Source of the DNA: Ferrimonas marina
GTDB taxonomy: Bacteria > Pseudomonadota > Gammaproteobacteria > Enterobacterales > Shewanellaceae
Assembly (NCBI RefSeq): GCF_900129905.1
Contig: NZ_FQXG01000006.1
Coordinates: 268,580-332,579 of the forward strand
Direction: 5' to 3'
Length of the DNA stretch: 64,000 bases
Shown here: one piece after another, positions 37,763 through 46,528 of the stretch
Numbering within the stretch: position 1 is the stretch's first letter
How the letters are laid out: each line of letters opens with the position of its first letter
The notes under the pieces: model-generated
The model's input: only the letters and a program-made list of their open reading frames with translations
Databases searched by the model: none
Told to the model about the DNA's origin: nothing
Translations under genes and position numbers: made by a program

Positions 37763-38956
37763 TCAATCCAACCCTTGCAGCTGCTGTAGCGCCTGTCGCA
37801 GTGCGTCAAGATCCATCTCGTTGACCTCGACACCCTCGCCCAGGCGGGGCAGCAGGGTGACACAAAGCTGGCCGCCGAGGTGCTGGCGAAACGCCTCCAG
37901 CCCCGCCAGCAGGGCGGGTTGCCCCTGCTCGTCACACTGCCCCAGCACCGGGTCATTCAGGGTGAAACCGAGCCGCTGCAGCAGCTGGAGCAGGCGCTGG
38001 CAGGCGTCGCTCTCCAGCAGGCCAATGGTATGGGCATAGAGGGCATCCAGGGCCATGCCGATGGCCACTGCCTCGCCGTGGCGCAGTCGATGATTGGATT
38101 GCAGCTCCAGCTGGTGGGCACTCCAGTGGCCGTAGTCCAGTGGCCGGGCGCTGCCCAGTTCAAAGGGGTCGCCACCGTCGCGGATCTGGGCCAGGTGCAG
38201 TTCGGCGCAGCGCTGGATCAGGGTCTGCATCGCCGGGTGGTTGCGGTCGAGCAGTTCGCTGCTGTGCTGCTCAATCCAGTCGAAGAAATGGCTATCTCGA
38301 ATGCAGGCCACCTTGACCGCTTCGGCCATGCCGGCGCGCCAATCCCGGGGGCTCAGGGTGCGCAGCAGATCGCAGTCGTTGATCACCGCAAAGGGGGGAG
38401 CGAAACAGCCCAGCAGGTTCTTCTGGCCAAAGGCGTTAACGCCGTTCTTAACGCCGATGCCGGCGTCGTTCTGGGCCAGCACGGTGCTGGGCAGGCGGAC
38501 GATGCGCAGTCCCCGGTGGAAGGTGGCGGCGGCATAGCCGACGGTATCGAGTACCGCGCCGCCGCCGATGGCCAGCACCACGCTATGGCGGTCGGCCCCG
38601 GCCTGGTTCAGTTGCTGGTGCAGGTAGCCCACCATCGCCTCGGTTTTGCCGCTTTCGCCACCGGGCAGGGTTTGCGGCGGGGCCAGCCAGCGCAGGTGCT
38701 GACGGTGGGTGCCGACGTAATCCTGTAGCTGCGGCATCAGTTGTGGCTGATGCCGGGCCAGCTCTTCGTCGACGAAGGCGAGCACACCGTGTTGGCGCTG
38801 GGGTTCACGTCGACGGATGGCGTTGAGCAACACCGGGTTGCACACCGCCAGGGCATGGCGGGTAAAGCTGAGGCGATAGTCGAACTGGACCTGGATGCAA
38901 TGATCCTGAGTCGCTGCGCTGCCTTGGGCGGCGGAGAGGATTCGGTGCTGTTCCAT
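37763..38956 (-). CDS. eboD: EboD: 3-dehydroquinate synthase-like sugar phosphate cyclase
   Basis: A 397-residue NAD- and metal-dependent cyclase. AIGGGAVLDTVGYAAATFHRG is the NAD-binding loop, and metal ligands are expected in AEAVKVACIRD, HWSAHQLE and RHGEAVAIGM. It is distinct from housekeeping AroB and likely cyclises a heptulose or other sugar phosphate. I start it at MEQHRILSAA; MGHPP five codons upstream is an alternative. It is the first gene of the six-gene cluster and is preceded by a long structured leader. Confidence 0.88.
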   Translation of the reverse strand: MEQHRILSAAQGSAATQDHCIQVQFDYRLSFTRHALAVCNPVLLNAIRRREPQRQHGVLAFVDEELARHQPQLMPQLQDYVGTHRQHLRWLAPPQTLPGGESGKTEAMVGYLHQQLNQAGADRHSVVLAIGGGAVLDTVGYAAATFHRGLRIVRLPSTVLAQNDAGIGVKNGVNAFGQKNLLGCFAPPFAVINDCDLLRTLSPRDWRAGMAEAVKVACIRDSHFFDWIEQHSSELLDRNHPAMQTLIQRCAELHLAQIRDGGDPFELGSARPLDYGHWSAHQLELQSNHRLRHGEAVAIGMALDALYAHTIGLLESDACQRLLQLLQRLGFTLNDPVLGQCDEQGQPALLAGLEAFRQHLGGQLCVTLLPRLGEGVEVNEMDLDALRQALQQLQGLD

Positions 38957-38984
38957 AGGCGGGTGACCCATCCCTAGCAATCGG

Positions 38985-39135
38985 TTCTGCGTGGTGGCCC
39001 GGGGCCACGTGTCCCTGAAGGATCTGGCCGGGCAACCCCGGCTGCCCTGCTCGTCAGGCAGATTGGCACCTAGCAAAGATAGTTGCTTTCCCGGGGCTTC
39101 GCCTGCTCCGGTCGTGGCTTTTCCCCGTGCTGTTG
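38985..39135 (-). other. Hairpin-rich leader upstream of eboD
   Basis: About 150 bp hold consecutive GC-rich inverted repeats: CCGGG/CCCGG around CAAC (39028-39041), CTGCCCTG/CAGGCAG with a bulge (39042-39061), AGCAA/TTGCT (39072-39087) and CGGGG/CCCCG (39092-39126) enclosing GCC/GGC. There is no ORF with a ribosome site. It could be a structured 5' leader of the ebo operon on the minus strand, or of the divergent SDR gene on the plus strand. I compared it mentally with cobalamin, c-di-GMP, SAM, Moco and TPP riboswitch cores and found no full match. Confidence 0.4.
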
Positions 39136-39184
39136 CTGTCGTAGCATGGCCACATCAACGGCAAACTAATGAAGAATGAGATTC

Positions 39185-39862
39185 ATGAAGAACGTATTGA
39201 TCACCGGGGCGACCCGGGGCCTGGGTCGCGCCCTGACCGTGCAGCTGTGTGAGCAGGGCTACCGGGTGTATGCCAGTGGCCGGGACGCCGAGGCGCTGGC
39301 CCAGCTGCAGCAGCAGACCGGTTGTCTGGGCAGTTGTGCTGACCTGGCGGATGCGGAGCAGGTGACGGCACTGTATCAACGGGCCAGCGACGCGCTGGGG
39401 GGGATCGAGGTGCTGATCAACAACGCCGGGATGAATACCCGCAAGGCGGCGGTGGTGGACACCGAGCTGGCGGAGTTCGAGTGGCAGTATGCGGTGAACC
39501 TGCGGGCACCCTACCTGTTGTGTCGGGCAGCGATGAGCGAGATGCAGCCACGAGGGGCGGGCCAAATCATCAATGTGATCAGCACCGTGGCCAAGCGCAG
39601 CAGCCCCACCATGGGGGTCTATACCACCATGAAGCAGGGGCTGGCGGGGCTCAATAACGTGCTGATGAAGGAGGCACAACCGCTGGGGATCAAGGTCACA
39701 GCGGTCTACCCGGGGGGGATGGATACCGAGTTTCGCGACCAGGCCCGGCCTCAGTACATCCGACCGGAGCAGGCGGCGCAAAAGATTGTGCAGCTGATAC
39801 AGGACCCGCCGGAGCTGGTCACCCATGAGCTGCTGTTCCGCCCGCCGGCGGAGCTGGAATAG
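39185..39862 (+). CDS. Short-chain dehydrogenase divergent from the ebo cluster
   Basis: A 225-residue SDR enzyme. The NADP-binding loop is TGATRGLGRAL, then NNAG, Ser in NVISTVAKRSS and catalytic YTTMK. It is classical in length. The ribosome site before MKNVLITG is weak (ATGAG). Because it shares the divergent intergenic region with eboD it could supply a redox step for the same pathway, but it may equally be unrelated. Confidence 0.88.
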   Translation: MKNVLITGATRGLGRALTVQLCEQGYRVYASGRDAEALAQLQQQTGCLGSCADLADAEQVTALYQRASDALGGIEVLINNAGMNTRKAAVVDTELAEFEWQYAVNLRAPYLLCRAAMSEMQPRGAGQIINVISTVAKRSSPTMGVYTTMKQGLAGLNNVLMKEAQPLGIKVTAVYPGGMDTEFRDQARPQYIRPEQAAQKIVQLIQDPPELVTHELLFRPPAELE

Positions 39863-41063: not shown

Positions 41064-41459
41064 TCAGCTTAGGGCGGCCCGAGCCAGCAGCGCGCGGTTG
41101 ATGCGGTGGATGGCGATGGTGTGGCTGGCCCGTTGCGGGTCCAGTTCACCTTCGCTGGGCAGGTAGAGCGCCGCCGGGCTGCGTGCCAGTGCTTGCTGCT
41201 CCTTGCACAAGGCCCGGTAGAAGCTGTTTTCACAGACAAAATGAACGGCACCCGGGTGCAGCTGGGCCTCCAGCCGTTCGATGCTGTCCAGTACGGTCTC
41301 GGTCAGGTCGTAGCCTTCGGCGCTGATCTCCAGGTAGCGCTGCTGACCCGCCTGGGCGGATTCGATCGACAACCCGGCTAAGGGTGCCAGCTCGGCGGGC
41401 AACTCGGTGCCCCGGGTGAGAAGCAGGGAGTAGTGAAAGGTCTGCTTTTGGGTGTTCAC
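41064..41459 (-). CDS. Hypothetical cytoplasmic protein
   Basis: A 131-residue protein starting with GTG (GGAG 6-7 nt upstream). It has no membrane segment or signal peptide and two cysteines (FVCENSFYRALCKEQQ). It is on the same strand as the double-glycine peptide gene and 126 nt downstream of it, beyond a hairpin. I do not recognise the family. Its soluble nature argues against a classical immunity protein, but the position makes it worth noting. Confidence 0.7.
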   Translation of the reverse strand: MNTQKQTFHYSLLLTRGTELPAELAPLAGLSIESAQAGQQRYLEISAEGYDLTETVLDSIERLEAQLHPGAVHFVCENSFYRALCKEQQALARSPAALYLPSEGELDPQRASHTIAIHRINRALLARAALS

Positions 41460-41542
41460 GGCGGCTCCGCTTATTTGTTGGTTTTCCTCACTATAACCAA
41501 GGTATTGCGGGCAGATCGTGAGCCAGATCCCCGGAACGGAAC

Positions 41543-41563
41543 GCGGCGCCCAGTGGGCGCCGC
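41543..41563 (-). terminator. Hairpin after the double-glycine peptide gene
   Basis: Stem GCGGCGCCC/GGGCGCCGC with a 3-nt loop, 23 nt past the peptide stop codon. On the minus strand it is followed by GTTCCGTTCC, so it is a weak-tail terminator candidate. Confidence 0.6.
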
Positions 41564-41585
41564 TTTGGGCATCAGTACTTTGCGA

Positions 41586-41744
41586 TCACTCCTTAATGAT
41601 CACCTCTGGCGGGATGCCGTTGTAGGTGCCGATGGGGGGCATGGTCGGGCCATCGCCACCGTCGCTGCCGTCGCCATTGCCGCCCACGATCTGCAGCAGT
41701 TCCTCTTCACTCAGGGTGTCCAGTTCCGGTTGTTGCTGTTGCAT
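41586..41744 (-). CDS. Double-glycine leader peptide (microcin/bacteriocin-type precursor)
   Basis: A 52-residue ORF with AAGGAG 9 nt before the ATG. The leader (1-22) ends with LSEEELLQIVGG, which fits the double-glycine consensus exactly: Leu at -12, Ser -11, Glu -8, Leu -7, Ile -4, Gly -2 and Gly -1. Cleavage after G22 would release a 30-residue core that is Gly/Asp-rich at first (NGDGSDGGDG) and then proline-containing (PTMPPIGTYN, GIPPEVIIKE). The core has no cysteine and a net charge near -4. It lies 28 nt after the C39 peptidase exporter gene on the same strand, so the exporter is its probable processing enzyme. No homologue is known to me. It could be a toxin, a signal or a surface peptide. 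Confidence 0.85.
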   Translation of the reverse strand: MQQQQPELDTLSEEELLQIVGGNGDGSDGGDGPTMPPIGTYNGIPPEVIIKE

Positions 41745-41772
41745 GGTGTTGCTCCTTGGGTTGGGGATAGAT

Positions 41773-43914
41773 TCAGGCAGGTTGCTGCCTGGCGACGCTA
41801 ACCTCGGTTAGCTGGCCCTGCTCCAGTCGGACGATGCGGTCCGCCTGTTTGAGGGATTCCTGACGGTGGGCGATCAACACCCGGGTCATCGACAGCTGGC
41901 GGATCTGTTCGCTGATCCTTGCTTCATTGCCGCTGTCGAGGTGGCTGGTAGCCTCATCCATAAACAGGATGGTGGGCTGGCGATAGAGCGCGCGGGCCAG
42001 CAGCAGCCGCTGGCTCTGGCCGCCGGAGAACTGGTTACCCATCTCCCCCACCAGGCTGTGGTAGCCCATGGGTAGCCGGTCGATCTCATCATCTATGGCG
42101 GCCCGATGGGCGCACTGTTGCATCCGCACCAGGCTGGGTTCGGCATCAAAGAAGGTGATGTTGTCCGCCACTGAGCCGGCCAGCAGGGTGTCGTTCTGCA
42201 TCACGGCGGCCACCCGCTGGCGGTAGTGACGCAGGCCCAGGGTGCTGATCTCCTGGCCATCCAGCAGCACCCGTCCCTGGCTGGGCTGAAGCAGGCCCAG
42301 CATCAGCTTCATCAGGGTGGTCTTGCCGCAGCCGGAGTCGCCGACGATGGCCAGGGACTGGCCGGCCTCGATGGTGAGGTTGACCCCTTTGAGGATCTCT
42401 GGCCCCTCCGGGTGGTAGCGAAAGTGAACCCCTTCCAGGGTCAGCTGGCCGCCGCCCTGGCGGCTCAGGCCAATGCCCTCACGGTGGGGCTCCGGCTTGG
42501 CCAGGGCGATGTCGGCGATCCGATCCAGGTGCAGTCGCAGCATGCGAAACTGCACCAGCTGCTCCACCAGACGGGTGAATCTGTGGGTCAACTGGGTCTT
42601 GTAGGCGATGAACGCCAGCACCATGCCGATGGTCAGCTGTCCCGCCATCACGGCGCCGGCAGCGAGGAAGATAACCAAGACATTTTCTAAGCTGAACAGC
42701 AGGTTATTTACCGATTCAATGCCGATCCTCAGCTTGCCAAAGCGGATATCGGCGTTGATCACCTCGGCGTAGCGGTTCTGCCACAGACCCTGGCGCTGCG
42801 GCTCGCTGCCGAACAGCTTGATCGCCTGCATCGCCCGCAGGTTCTCCAGGAACAGCGACTGCTCCTTGGCCTGGGCCTGGATCGACTCCTCGGTGACCCG
42901 GTGCAGCGGCGCGTAGAGGGCACAGCGCAGCAGGGCATAGCAGGCCATGGCCAGCAACACCACCGCGGTCAGGGCAGGGCTGTAGAGCATCATCATCGCC
43001 ACCATGGCGATCGCCATCAGGCCATCCACCAGGGTTTCGATCAGGCCGCTGGTGAGCCGTTCGCGGATCTTGTTGAGGGAGCCGAAGCGGGAGACCAGGT
43101 CCCCCAGCTGGCGCCGCTCAAAGAAGCCCATGGGCAGGCGCAGCAGGTGGTGCAGCAGGTTCACCCCCAACTGCAGGTTGGTCATGCTCGCCAGCCGCAG
43201 GATCACCCAGCTGCGCAAGCCGTTGGTTAATTCGTTGACCAGCACCAGCAGGGCAAAGCCAATGGCCAATACCGTCAACAGTGGCCGATCGGCACTGACC
43301 AGCACCTCGTCCACCACCCACTGCAGGTAGTAGGGGGTGGCCAGGGCAAAGGACTGCAACAACAGCGACAGCCCCAACAGGGTCAACAGGGCGGTCTTGA
43401 AACCGGTCAGCCGACTCCACAGTTGATTCAGTGCCAGCCGGGCACCCTGCTTTTGTGGCACAAAGCCCTGGGTCGGGGTCAGCTCCAACGCCACCCCGCT
43501 GTAGAGCCGTTCAAACTCCTCCGGACTCAACACCCGCTTGCCCAAGGCCGGGTCGTGGATCACCCGCTGGTTGGCACGGACCTTGGTCAGCACCACGTAG
43601 TGGTTGGCCTCCCAGTGCAGGATGCAGGGCAGCTGCAGCTGTCCCACCCGCTCGGCGGGACAGCGCAGTGGCCGGGCCGCCAGGTCAAAGCGATCCCCCA
43701 GCTGCACCATCTGCAGCAGGTTGAGACCACCAAGGCCAGCCGCCCCCTGCTGGCGCAGGGCACTCATGGTCAGCCGATGGCCATGGTAGTTGGCCACCAT
43801 GCCGATGCAGGCCAGGCCGCACTCGGCGATCTCCGCCTGCAGGATCAGGGGAACCCGGCGCAGGCCGGAGAATTCGAGCAGCTCCAAGGGTGAGCGAAGG
43901 GTTTCTCTGGTCAT
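41773..43914 (-). CDS. Peptidase-containing ABC transporter (C39 PCAT)
   Basis: A 713-residue exporter in three parts. The C39 peptidase domain is residues 1-130, with oxyanion Gln26, catalytic Cys32 (AEIAECGLACIGM), His105 (WEANHYVVL) and Asp121 (VIHDPALG), so it looks active. A six-helix membrane domain follows. The ATPase domain has Walker A GDSGCGKTT, signature FSGGQSQRLLLARAL and Walker B FMDEATSHLD. Such proteins cut double-glycine leaders while exporting the core peptide. Its ATG overlaps the adaptor stop by one base (TGATG). Confidence 0.96.
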   Translation of the reverse strand: MTRETLRSPLELLEFSGLRRVPLILQAEIAECGLACIGMVANYHGHRLTMSALRQQGAAGLGGLNLLQMVQLGDRFDLAARPLRCPAERVGQLQLPCILHWEANHYVVLTKVRANQRVIHDPALGKRVLSPEEFERLYSGVALELTPTQGFVPQKQGARLALNQLWSRLTGFKTALLTLLGLSLLLQSFALATPYYLQWVVDEVLVSADRPLLTVLAIGFALLVLVNELTNGLRSWVILRLASMTNLQLGVNLLHHLLRLPMGFFERRQLGDLVSRFGSLNKIRERLTSGLIETLVDGLMAIAMVAMMMLYSPALTAVVLLAMACYALLRCALYAPLHRVTEESIQAQAKEQSLFLENLRAMQAIKLFGSEPQRQGLWQNRYAEVINADIRFGKLRIGIESVNNLLFSLENVLVIFLAAGAVMAGQLTIGMVLAFIAYKTQLTHRFTRLVEQLVQFRMLRLHLDRIADIALAKPEPHREGIGLSRQGGGQLTLEGVHFRYHPEGPEILKGVNLTIEAGQSLAIVGDSGCGKTTLMKLMLGLLQPSQGRVLLDGQEISTLGLRHYRQRVAAVMQNDTLLAGSVADNITFFDAEPSLVRMQQCAHRAAIDDEIDRLPMGYHSLVGEMGNQFSGGQSQRLLLARALYRQPTILFMDEATSHLDSGNEARISEQIRQLSMTRVLIAHRQESLKQADRIVRLEQGQLTEVSVARQQPA

Positions 43915-45155
43915 CAGCCGATCCTCCGCTGCAGGCCATACAAGGGCGCCAGCAACCAGGCCATCAGGCTGCGTTGCTCCAACTGGATGTCCGCTTCCAG
44001 CAGCATGCCTGGCTTGAGCGGGAAGGGCTCTCCGTCGGCGCTGATCTGCTGCTGACTCAACCGGGCCTTGAGCCGATAGACCGGCCCGGACAGGGTGAAG
44101 GGCAGGCTACCCTGGCCCGGGCTGAGCAACGCCTTGTCCACCTGCACCACCTCGGCCTCGACAAAGCCGAAGCGCTGGTAGGGGAAGGCATCGAAGCGCA
44201 GCAGGGCACGGTCGCCGGGACGGACGAAGCCGGCACTGTGGCTAGGCAGCAGCAGCTCGGCGATCAACTCCGCCCCATCGGGGATCAGCTGCATCACGCT
44301 GTGATCCGCATCCAGCTGCTGGCCGGTCAGGTAGGCGATGGCAGTGACCTGGCCGGCGGCGGGGGCACGGAGCACGTAGCGATAGTGGTGTTCCGCCTCC
44401 GCTTGCTGGCGTTTGAGCTCGGATAGGCGCTGCAACAGGGCATTACGGGCAAGCGCATGTTCGGTGGGCAGGGCTGAGCGCTGATTGAGATTACGGTGCA
44501 CCTCCTCGATGGTCTTGGCGATCTCCACCTGGACATGCTCCTGCTCCTGGCGCAGCGCCAGGTGCTTGGCTTGCTCGGCCTGCAGCTCCAGCTGTGACAG
44601 GTGGCCACGCTGAAACAACCGCTCGAACTGGGCCAGCTGAGATTGGCTCAGCGCCAGCTTTTCCGTCATCAGCTCAGCCTGGCTATCGAGCGCCTGCTGA
44701 CGGCGGATCAGGTCCTGCTGCTGGGCCTCGAGTCGTTGCTTGCGGTGATCAAACAGGGCTTGCTGCTGGTTGAGCTCCTGTTGGATCAGCGTCGCCTGGC
44801 TGGCCAACTCCGCCATCACCCGTTCACTCAGCTCTTGCCCGCCACTGGTGCCTCGACGCAGCACCACGGTGGCCAGGGGCTGACCCGCTGTCACCTGTTC
44901 GCCCTCCTCGACGTGTAACTGCTCCAGGATCCCGGTACGGGGCGGGAACACCCGTAATAAGCCCAGCTCCGGATTTAAATACCCTCGGACTGTGGCTTTT
45001 CTGGTGTAATTGGCTTGGGAAAGAAACAGGGCGGCAATAGTGATAATGAGAATGATGCATGCGCAGGAAATATATATTGGCACAGGCTGAGCCAGGCTGA
45101 CCTCACCCAACAATCGATGTTCTCTTTTATTATTTTCTAGTGATTGTTCCGACAT
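43914..45155 (-). CDS. HlyD/CvaA-type membrane fusion protein
   Basis: A 413-residue periplasmic adaptor. It has a short cytoplasmic N-terminus, one TM (about 27-46), a biotinyl-lipoyl-like segment (GILEQLHVEEGEQVTAGQPL), a long alpha-helical coiled coil rich in Gln (about 110-255), the second lipoyl half (VLRAPAAGQVTAIAYLTGQQ) and a C-terminal beta domain. It links the PCAT to an outer-membrane TolC channel, which is not encoded in the window. It is the first gene of the operon; codon use near its N-terminus (AATAATAAAAGAG-like codons) is more AT-rich than its neighbours. Confidence 0.93.
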   Translation of the reverse strand: MSEQSLENNKREHRLLGEVSLAQPVPIYISCACIILIITIAALFLSQANYTRKATVRGYLNPELGLLRVFPPRTGILEQLHVEEGEQVTAGQPLATVVLRRGTSGGQELSERVMAELASQATLIQQELNQQQALFDHRKQRLEAQQQDLIRRQQALDSQAELMTEKLALSQSQLAQFERLFQRGHLSQLELQAEQAKHLALRQEQEHVQVEIAKTIEEVHRNLNQRSALPTEHALARNALLQRLSELKRQQAEAEHHYRYVLRAPAAGQVTAIAYLTGQQLDADHSVMQLIPDGAELIAELLLPSHSAGFVRPGDRALLRFDAFPYQRFGFVEAEVVQVDKALLSPGQGSLPFTLSGPVYRLKARLSQQQISADGEPFPLKPGMLLEADIQLEQRSLMAWLLAPLYGLQRRIG

Positions 45156-45571
45156 GGGGCTTCCTTTTTGTACGAGGTTAAGTGGAAGTGATTAGCCTAG
45201 GTTACCCCTGTAGGCTTCTGCCTGGCTGTTGCTTAAATGCTGGCTTAATGCTCTGATAGCAATTGGTTTGATGGGTCTGTTTGTTCCAACTGTTTTGAAC
45301 CGGAATACGGTCTTTCTGCGTTTTATTAATCAGACTTTATGGTTTATCCCACTGGCTCGTGGCAGGGATGGAGTGGATAGTTGATATATACAATATACGC
45401 TTCTATCTGGTGCAATAAATAACTGCCCAAAGCGACTTGTTAATGCCTTGTAAAAGTTGACCGTTTGGTTTGACTTGAAATTCGGCTTTACTCCATGCTG
45501 GTGAATACAACAGATATATGCATGGAGTTGTCGGTGCCGACCTGGCACCGCGCAGTGGCAAGGAGAGGCCG
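45156..45571. promoter_or_regulatory. AT-rich divergent promoter region
   Basis: A 416-bp gap between the adaptor operon (minus) and the LRR lipoprotein (plus). It is visibly richer in A and T than the rest of the window (for example TTGATATATACAATATACGC near 45381). Several -10-like TATAAT variants are present, but I cannot assign one start. No double-glycine leader or other credible small gene was found in it on either strand. Confidence 0.5.
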
Positions 45572-46528
45572 ATGAAACGATGGATCCTGAGCGGGTGTTT
45601 GCTGGTAGGGCTGTCCGCTTGTGGCGACAGCAGCAGTTCACTGGATAAAGTGCAGTTGCCCTCGGAGGGGCTGCAGGCCTGCTTTGAGCTCAAGCGTGAG
45701 CTCTTCAACTGGCAGACCCTGGCGGATGTGGAGGTGCTGGAGTGCAGCGGTAGCGATGTGGACAGCGCTGAAGGCCTGACCCAGTTGCCCCACCTGCGTT
45801 ACCTCAACCTGAGCAAAACCGGCATCGAGGTGGCGGAGCCGGATCTGGCCACACTCTACTCCCTGGGGCTGACGGAGAACGCCTATTTGGGAAAGGTGGA
45901 GCTGGGCAAGGCTAAGGACCTGGGCAAGCTGGTGTTGGATCACAACTGGTTGCTGTCGGAGCTGGATCTCAGCGCCAACCCATCACTGAACGCACTCTAT
46001 CTAACCGGCCAGGAGGTGATCAGCGAGCTGGATCTGAGCAACAATTTGGAGCTGCAGCTGCTCTCCATCACCGAGCACGGCCTGACAGAGCTGGATCTCA
46101 GCCCGTTGTATCGCTTATTTGGCATCACCATATTGAACGATGGCAAGCTGGAGCAGCTCACTCTGGGGACCCACCCTGACCTGGAAAATCTGACCGCCTG
46201 GAACAACCAGCTGACTGAGCTGATCTTCACTGCCCCTCAGCACATTCGAGAGCTGAACCTGAGGCAGAACCGGCTGACGACACTGGATACCGAGGCGCTG
46301 CCGGTGATCACCCGTCTCAACCTGTCTGATAATCCCCTACAGAGCCTGGATTTGAGCAGCAATACCCAGCTGGAGCAACTGATTGCCCGGGACACCGAGC
46401 TGACCGACATCCGCTTCGACAATAACAGCGCGTTGTGGCTGGTGGATCTGCGCGGTTCGCCACTGAGCGAGGAGACCCGGGCCTACCTCAGTAACCTGGA
46501 TTGGATCGCGGAACTGAGATACGACTGA
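45572..46528 (+). CDS. Leucine-rich-repeat lipoprotein
   Basis: A 318-residue lipoprotein (lipobox LSAC) with about ten leucine-rich repeats of 20-22 residues, for example LSELDLSANPSLNALYL, ISELDLSNNLELQLLSI and ITRLNLSDNPLQSLDLSSN. AAGGAGAGG precedes MKRWILSG by about 8 nt. LRR lipoproteins act in binding or adhesion at the cell surface. It is divergent from the peptide export operon, so a link (receptor, anchor or self-protection) is possible but untested. Confidence 0.88.
   Translation: MKRWILSGCLLVGLSACGDSSSSLDKVQLPSEGLQACFELKRELFNWQTLADVEVLECSGSDVDSAEGLTQLPHLRYLNLSKTGIEVAEPDLATLYSLGLTENAYLGKVELGKAKDLGKLVLDHNWLLSELDLSANPSLNALYLTGQEVISELDLSNNLELQLLSITEHGLTELDLSPLYRLFGITILNDGKLEQLTLGTHPDLENLTAWNNQLTELIFTAPQHIRELNLRQNRLTTLDTEALPVITRLNLSDNPLQSLDLSSNTQLEQLIARDTELTDIRFDNNSALWLVDLRGSPLSEETRAYLSNLDWIAELRYD

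Follow-up and report, generated by a model that had tools for sequence, protein, structure and literature searches.

A three-gene operon on the minus strand of a 64-kb stretch of the Ferrimonas marina genome (64,000 nucleotides (nt) of contig NZ_FQXG01000006.1, hereafter the window) is predicted to export a short double-glycine peptide whose last eight residues, PPEVIIKE, follow a pattern, PPxxIIxx-stop, that recurs at the end of other proteins of the genus. From sequence, and with about even confidence, we read it as a double-glycine secretion operon whose peptide bears a PPxxIIxx recognition tail and would more likely serve as a signal or a competitor than as a pore-former. The three-gene set belongs to a well-known type of secretion system; the cargo peptide and its shared tail look new. 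In the literature searched, double-glycine peptides of Gram-negative bacteria are mainly microcins and, if this reading is correct, a hydrophilic peptide carrying the tail of a kinase-sigma factor cluster would suggest that this machinery also serves a further purpose, probably signalling.

Organisation of the operon and its precursor gene

The first gene encodes a HlyD-type periplasmic adaptor, or membrane fusion protein, of 413 amino acids (aa) (43914-45155; Pfam HlyD_3, 6.1e-17), which scored 155.3 bits against TIGR01843 and did not reach the cut-off of 208.65. The second encodes a C39-peptidase ABC exporter (PCAT) of 713 aa (41773-43914) with matches above cut-offs to the Pfam families Peptidase_C39 (3e-33), ABC_membrane (1.4e-37) and ABC_tran (3.2e-33); its 502.4 bits against the NHLM bacteriocin exporter model TIGR03796 remained below the curated cut-off of 853.3. 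The C39 domain, delimited by Pfam and by alignment, covers exporter residues 21-148 (43471-43854) and includes Q26, C32, H105 and D121, all of which are invariant in an alignment of this exporter with three others, and C32, H105 and D121 correspond to the CvaB numbering given in PMC9746304. After a spacer of 28 nt (41745-41772) comes an open reading frame (ORF) of 52 codons (41586-41744), whose ATG is preceded at 7 nt by an AAGGAG ribosome-binding-site motif (41752-41757). Reading of both strands confirmed these three genes, their coordinates, the spacer and the motif, and the alignment the intact peptidase residues, as first described in a sequence-only reading of the window.

The precursor is recognised by its ORF, its leader pattern and its relatives behind an exporter of another Ferrimonas genome (see below). 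Its leader of 22 residues (41679-41744), LSEEELLQIVGG, was delimited by translation and by a leader profile, and agrees at every specified position with LSxxELxxIxGG, the double-glycine leader consensus. Each ORF was taken to begin at the earliest start codon that follows a stop, so the gene has no start further upstream. A strict leader pattern matched only this gene in the six frames of the window, and a looser one (GG, GA or GS in an ORF starting with ATG) matched six ORFs, this one alone having a ribosome-binding-site motif. At the level of the whole 5.0-Mb genome (G000), a profile built from 20 leaders, that of the window among them, retrieved the window leader (E 0.0102) and no orphan precursor elsewhere at E<=10. 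The predicted secreted core of 30 residues (41589-41678) is acidic (net charge -4), rich in proline (5 residues, 17%) and glycine, and has a mean hydropathy of -0.62 and no hydrophobic stretch, its best 15-residue mean being 0.40; it is probably flexible.

The operon thus combines what characterises PCAT secretion operons, namely a C39-ABC fusion with the catalytic Cys, His and Asp, a membrane fusion protein gene and a short precursor with a GG leader. Based on the established knowledge of such exporters and on the intact residues, the C39 domain would bind the 22-residue leader and cut after the GG, and the exporter, together with the HlyD adaptor and a TolC-type channel supplied from elsewhere, would export the 30-residue peptide, which would be acidic and devoid of any membrane-inserting stretch. 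Secretion of this peptide by the operon, already proposed in the sequence-only reading, is likely and well supported by the anatomy, from which we infer both cleavage and export. To call the operon self-contained was too strong, as it includes neither a TolC gene (no search aimed at TolC elsewhere in G000 was made) nor an evident immunity gene. Downstream of the precursor gene, a GC-rich hairpin with 13-nt arms that are 92% complementary (41540-41566) possibly marks the operon end; it lacks a T-run when read on the minus strand and was not among the matches of the terminator scan. A promoter scan found none.

Relatives of the exporter and of the precursor

At E<=1e-200, nine exporters were found in 8 of the 14 Ferrimonas genomes, two of them in G000. 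A credible double-glycine precursor occurs within ca. 1.5 kb of seven of these nine (the window copy, G001, G002, G005, G006, G008 and G011), with cores that are unlike those of the window and G011 in the other genomes. No precursor was found by the exporter of G012, where the single match to the pattern falls within the HlyD gene. At E<=1e-180, an exporter is present in 45 of 394 sampled genomes of the order.

A phylogeny of 58 exporters joined the window exporter with that of G011 (locus L124) with support of 100/99. It comprised 49 of the 80 named loci described below, both exporters of G000 and the seven others found in the genus; L130, which has no full ORF, 30 other named loci and L031-L057 were left out. 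Holding the window exporter with the second copy of G000 was rejected (approximately unbiased test, p-AU 0.0007), the window and G011 exporters were again paired at 100/99 in a 21-row tree without that copy, in which the flags for make-up and long branches were not raised, and the window exporter still did not join the second copy when G011 was omitted. Based on these three results, the pairing does not merely reflect an attraction of like letter make-up, although the branches are long. The second copy (L002, G000:C8:80357-85453) is of the same type, 64% identical to the window exporter and accompanied by a HlyD gene. A pattern scan of the surrounding 19 kb detected no double-glycine ORF, and a 43-aa ORF that follows this exporter has an AAGGAGG motif and one strongly hydrophobic stretch. 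Elsewhere, one contig of Veronia nyctiphanis (L123, L125) carries two identical exporters with the same three precursors.

Among the 13 other genus genomes, a recognisable relative of the window precursor was found beside an exporter only in G011 (E 0.064), where reading of the locus revealed two precursors in tandem directly behind the exporter gene. Conservation of the small ORF next to its exporter, on which the sequence-only reading had made its claim depend, is therefore observed, narrowly, in a single genome. The window precursor is 35 and 42% identical over its length to the two G011 precursors, with the leader supplying much of the identity. Over 44 aligned codons, from which the unlike first residues were omitted, the tandem precursors differ by six synonymous and six non-synonymous changes (dN 0.09, dS 0.29), and ELTPEELAEIQGG and TFPPGGIIRI are unchanged between them, which suggests, in spite of the small numbers, that the encoded protein is under constraint. 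A search of the genus at E<=1 gave seven weak places in six genomes other than that of G011, which were not taken as relatives: three were read (L025, L027 and L030) and the remainder were judged by their long open frames of 296 to 944 aa.

In the wider order, a profile of the 52-aa ORF gave a match at E<=0.5 in 40 of the 394 genomes, a sample that does not include G011. Twelve of 29 newly found loci were read, of which 11 were not double-glycine-like; the remaining one (L059, G121:C7:200499-200576) has a double-glycine leader followed by a Gly-rich hydrophilic core and represents a distant family. No convincing relative besides that of the window genome itself emerged from this sample, and none was found in a plasmid collection. 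Such scarcity in the order would be expected of an ORF that is untranslated or a decayed remnant, an explanation that is nevertheless highly improbable: the ORF has a ribosome-binding-site motif and an intact leader, its third-position G+C (0.77) is near that of the HlyD (0.76) and exporter (0.86) genes, it holds a unique place behind the exporter and it has tandem relatives behind the exporter of G011. Judging from these features, the 52-codon gene is very probably real. Usual gene callers handle genes of 52 codons, and the suggestion that the precursor is too short for ordinary ORF calling was overstated.

The PPxxIIxx tail and the kinase cluster

The octapeptide PPEVIIKE (41589-41612) was missed in the sequence-only reading because the tail becomes visible only when related genomes are compared. 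The window peptide ends in IPPEVIIKE and both G011 peptides in FPPGGIIRI, while a 167-aa protein encoded upstream of the G011 export module, designated p167, ends in YPPGGIIRT. The p167 proteins of G002 (PPGGIIRI), G003 and G004 (both PPGGIIRN) and a distant relative in G013 (E 0.00198; PPRVIITY) end alike, the residues P, P, I and I being invariant across the five p167-family proteins, whose identity to the first is as low as 25%. The motif is equally far from the stop in the window peptide, in both G011 peptides and in all five p167-family proteins, and we infer from this fixed distance, in secreted peptides and p167 alike, that a free C-terminus may be what is recognised. The Ser/Thr kinase encoded next to p167 contains TPR repeats, and such repeats bind free C-terminal ends. 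PPEVIIKE would thus be a C-terminal recognition tail, as on the G011 peptides and p167, and the exported peptide would act by tail binding, more probably in signalling or by competing with the tail of p167 than as a pore-forming bacteriocin. An eight-residue tail at a fixed distance from the stop is open to direct test with synthetic peptides. No work on this tail, on Ferrimonas double-glycine peptides or on the strings PPGGII and PPEVII was found in a literature search that left most subscription journals outside.

In G002, G003, G004 and G011, p167 belongs to a cluster in which an ECF sigma gene, the Ser/Thr kinase gene, p167 and a LytTR gene follow each other; in G013, p167 is followed by a response-regulator-like gene instead of LytTR. 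Pfam assignments were made for members of G000, G003, G011 and G013, the remaining members being tblastn matches. Only in G011 is the HlyD-exporter-precursor module inserted between p167 and LytTR, giving the order kinase, p167, HlyD, exporter, two precursors and LytTR. In G000, an ECF sigma gene, a kinase (38% identical), a LytTR gene and like flanking genes occur at C6. The cluster is present in all six genomes that have p167 or a tailed precursor; of the eight others, the search covered G007 and G012, with 400 kb from each taken near the place expected from G002, and no kinase cluster was found there. At the cluster loci (L124:74-8344, L204-L207 and L242), an ABC transporter gene accompanies the ECF sigma, TPR kinase, p167 and LytTR genes, with p167 absent in L242 and another regulator instead of LytTR in L207.

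The nature of p167 was approached through its sequence and predicted fold. No NCBIfam match was obtained for the one member searched, nor any Pfam match at E<=0.01 for three members. Outside the genus, 4 of the 394 order genomes, a sample that includes none of the five p167 genomes, gave matches at E<=0.1, all partial and taken as chance. The model predicted from a 5-sequence alignment reached a mean pLDDT of 74.2 (other models being as low as 43.4) and contains many beta strands; its end, residues 147-167, which holds the tail, was modelled with low confidence and is probably disordered. Against the PDB it gave one match at E<=0.001, with a query TM of 0.29, and thus no usable relative; among the 50 matches listed, further ones were beta-sandwich domains with a top TM of 0.47 by either length. 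In three of the kinases, the best hydropathy stretches range from 1.52 to 1.64.

Several observations weigh against the proposed recognition tail, and some of them would fit an exported peptide of unrelated function whose PPxxIIxx likeness arose by chance, which we consider unlikely. Local alignment of the window core with the G011 cores is not significant, 913 and 655 of 2000 shuffles scoring equally high, and the likeness of the ends is limited to P, P, I, I and one basic residue; the kinship of the two systems therefore rests on the leader, the tail, the place of the genes and the exporter tree. In that tree of 58 rows, the G011 branch is long and the letter make-up is odd for the exporters of the window, of G011 and of the second copy; judged by identity (63%), Shewanella exporters come equally near to that of the window. 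A scan of the 14 genus genomes for the tail before a TAA or TGA stop, with both isoleucines strictly required, found 24 matches, spread over 11 genomes, compared with seven in the backwards control. These 24 comprise five p167-family genes, three double-glycine precursors, four instances of one 17-codon frame and 12 others in unconnected frames; four of the latter have no start codon and eight have one, and three of these eight have an ATG, a ribosome-binding-site motif and overlapping ORFs of at most 55 aa. In G000 the kinase cluster has no p167 and the peptide operon lies elsewhere in the genome. Finally, p167 has by eye no signal sequence, whereas the tail that it would have to meet is carried by a peptide predicted to be secreted.

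Chance is countered by the grouping of the window and G011 exporters and by the constant distance between motif and stop in eight proteins of two kinds. Besides, only 68 of 200000 shuffles of the window core end in PPxxIIxx, which is not an unbiased p-value because the peptides were known before the pattern was defined. The window peptide likewise falls within the group of PPxxIIxx-tailed peptides with the pattern framed while it was in view. Among the 79 precursors of the named loci (see below), the tail was found only in the two of L124, even when I, V or L was allowed. The three short frames mentioned above (L209 in G001, 44 aa; L224 in G007, 28 aa; L230 in G003, 30 aa) have no double-glycine leader and may be due to chance or be real small genes outside the tail story. 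The 17-codon frame, which ends in PPEIIISC in four genus genomes (L220, L221, L222 and L232), had no start codon in the two cases checked and may correspond to conserved non-coding DNA.

A more specific proposal, which on the sequence evidence must be regarded as quite improbable, is that the peptide is a pheromone-like signal, its octapeptide copying the p167 tail and being read by the ECF sigma, TPR kinase and LytTR cluster. A colicin V-type exporter would then supply a kinase-sigma pathway. The full set (kinase, p167, export module and LytTR) would be contiguous in G011 and divided in G000, where the peptide would replace the missing p167.

Comparison with known peptide systems and neighbouring genes

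The sequence-only reading had pointed to colicin V and class II microcins for comparison, and the likeness holds for the export machinery: CvaAB-type systems likewise combine a C39 ABC exporter bearing C32, H105 and D121, a membrane fusion protein and a short double-glycine precursor (PMC9746304). According to the same source, a class II microcin system has five parts, among them a TolC channel and an immunity protein that is encoded near the precursor and tends to have membrane helices. The cargo of the window operon is a doubtful microcin, as by description it differs from these by its lack of a hydrophobic stretch and of an evident immunity gene and by its PPxxIIxx tail.

How far precursors of related exporters resemble microcins was assessed in the best 80 of 457 exporter relatives from named genomes, 63 of which contain one or more ORFs that show a leader-like pattern, though some of these ORFs are certainly spurious. 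Requiring a stricter leader together with an ATG start, a ribosome-binding-site motif and location on the exporter's strand left 79 distinct precursors, a few of them perhaps false. A strongly hydrophobic, microcin-like stretch (15 residues with a mean hydropathy of at least 1.6) occurs in 43 of these, which together with an exporter, adaptor and leader of the same type speaks for an antibacterial class II microcin-like peptide in the window too. Eighteen precursors have no 15-residue stretch reaching 0.5 and 12 contain at least 10% proline; the window core belongs to this hydrophilic minority. Immunity to such a microcin would have to come from an unrecognised gene, for instance the 131-aa ORF with a GTG start (41064-41459) that adjoins the precursor side of the operon on the same strand and was found in none of the 13 other genus genomes at E<=0.001. 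This ORF lies beyond the hairpin, matches no family and contains no stretch resembling a membrane segment (best 19-residue mean 0.79), and its own neighbour encodes a TerC-family protein of 246 aa, leaving no evident immunity gene. Taken with the acidic, hydrophilic core and the tail in common with p167, these features make a microcin somewhat unlikely.

For a signal or competitor carrying the tail, precedents can be named outside the microcins. RaxX of Xanthomonas has a double-glycine leader. It is made by a Gram-negative bacterium, has a dedicated exporter cluster (raxSTAB) and acts in plant recognition and not in killing (PMC6637879); unlike the window peptide, for which no sulfotransferase was found among the operon neighbours tested, RaxX is sulfated. 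Small proteins controlling biofilm formation in Synechococcus are also secreted by means of a GG motif and have a non-bacteriocin role (PMC4997328), in this case in a cyanobacterium. Both are likened to the window system by description and not by homology. The p167 clusters recall ECF43 sigma/Ser-Thr kinase pairs (EcfP-PknT and EcfK-PknS), in which the ECF sigma gene lies beside the kinase gene (PMC8999054); they differ by the addition of p167 and LytTR. Colicin V-type export, class II microcins (PMC9746304) and ECF43-kinase pairs (PMC8999054) are already well described.

On the other side of the operon, a 336-aa leucine-rich-repeat protein with, by eye, a lipoprotein-like start is encoded on the opposite strand (45518-46528), and was found in none of the 13 other genus genomes at E<=1e-20. 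Back on the precursor side, a gene for a dehydroquinate synthase-like protein adjoins one for a short-chain dehydrogenase (37763-39862).

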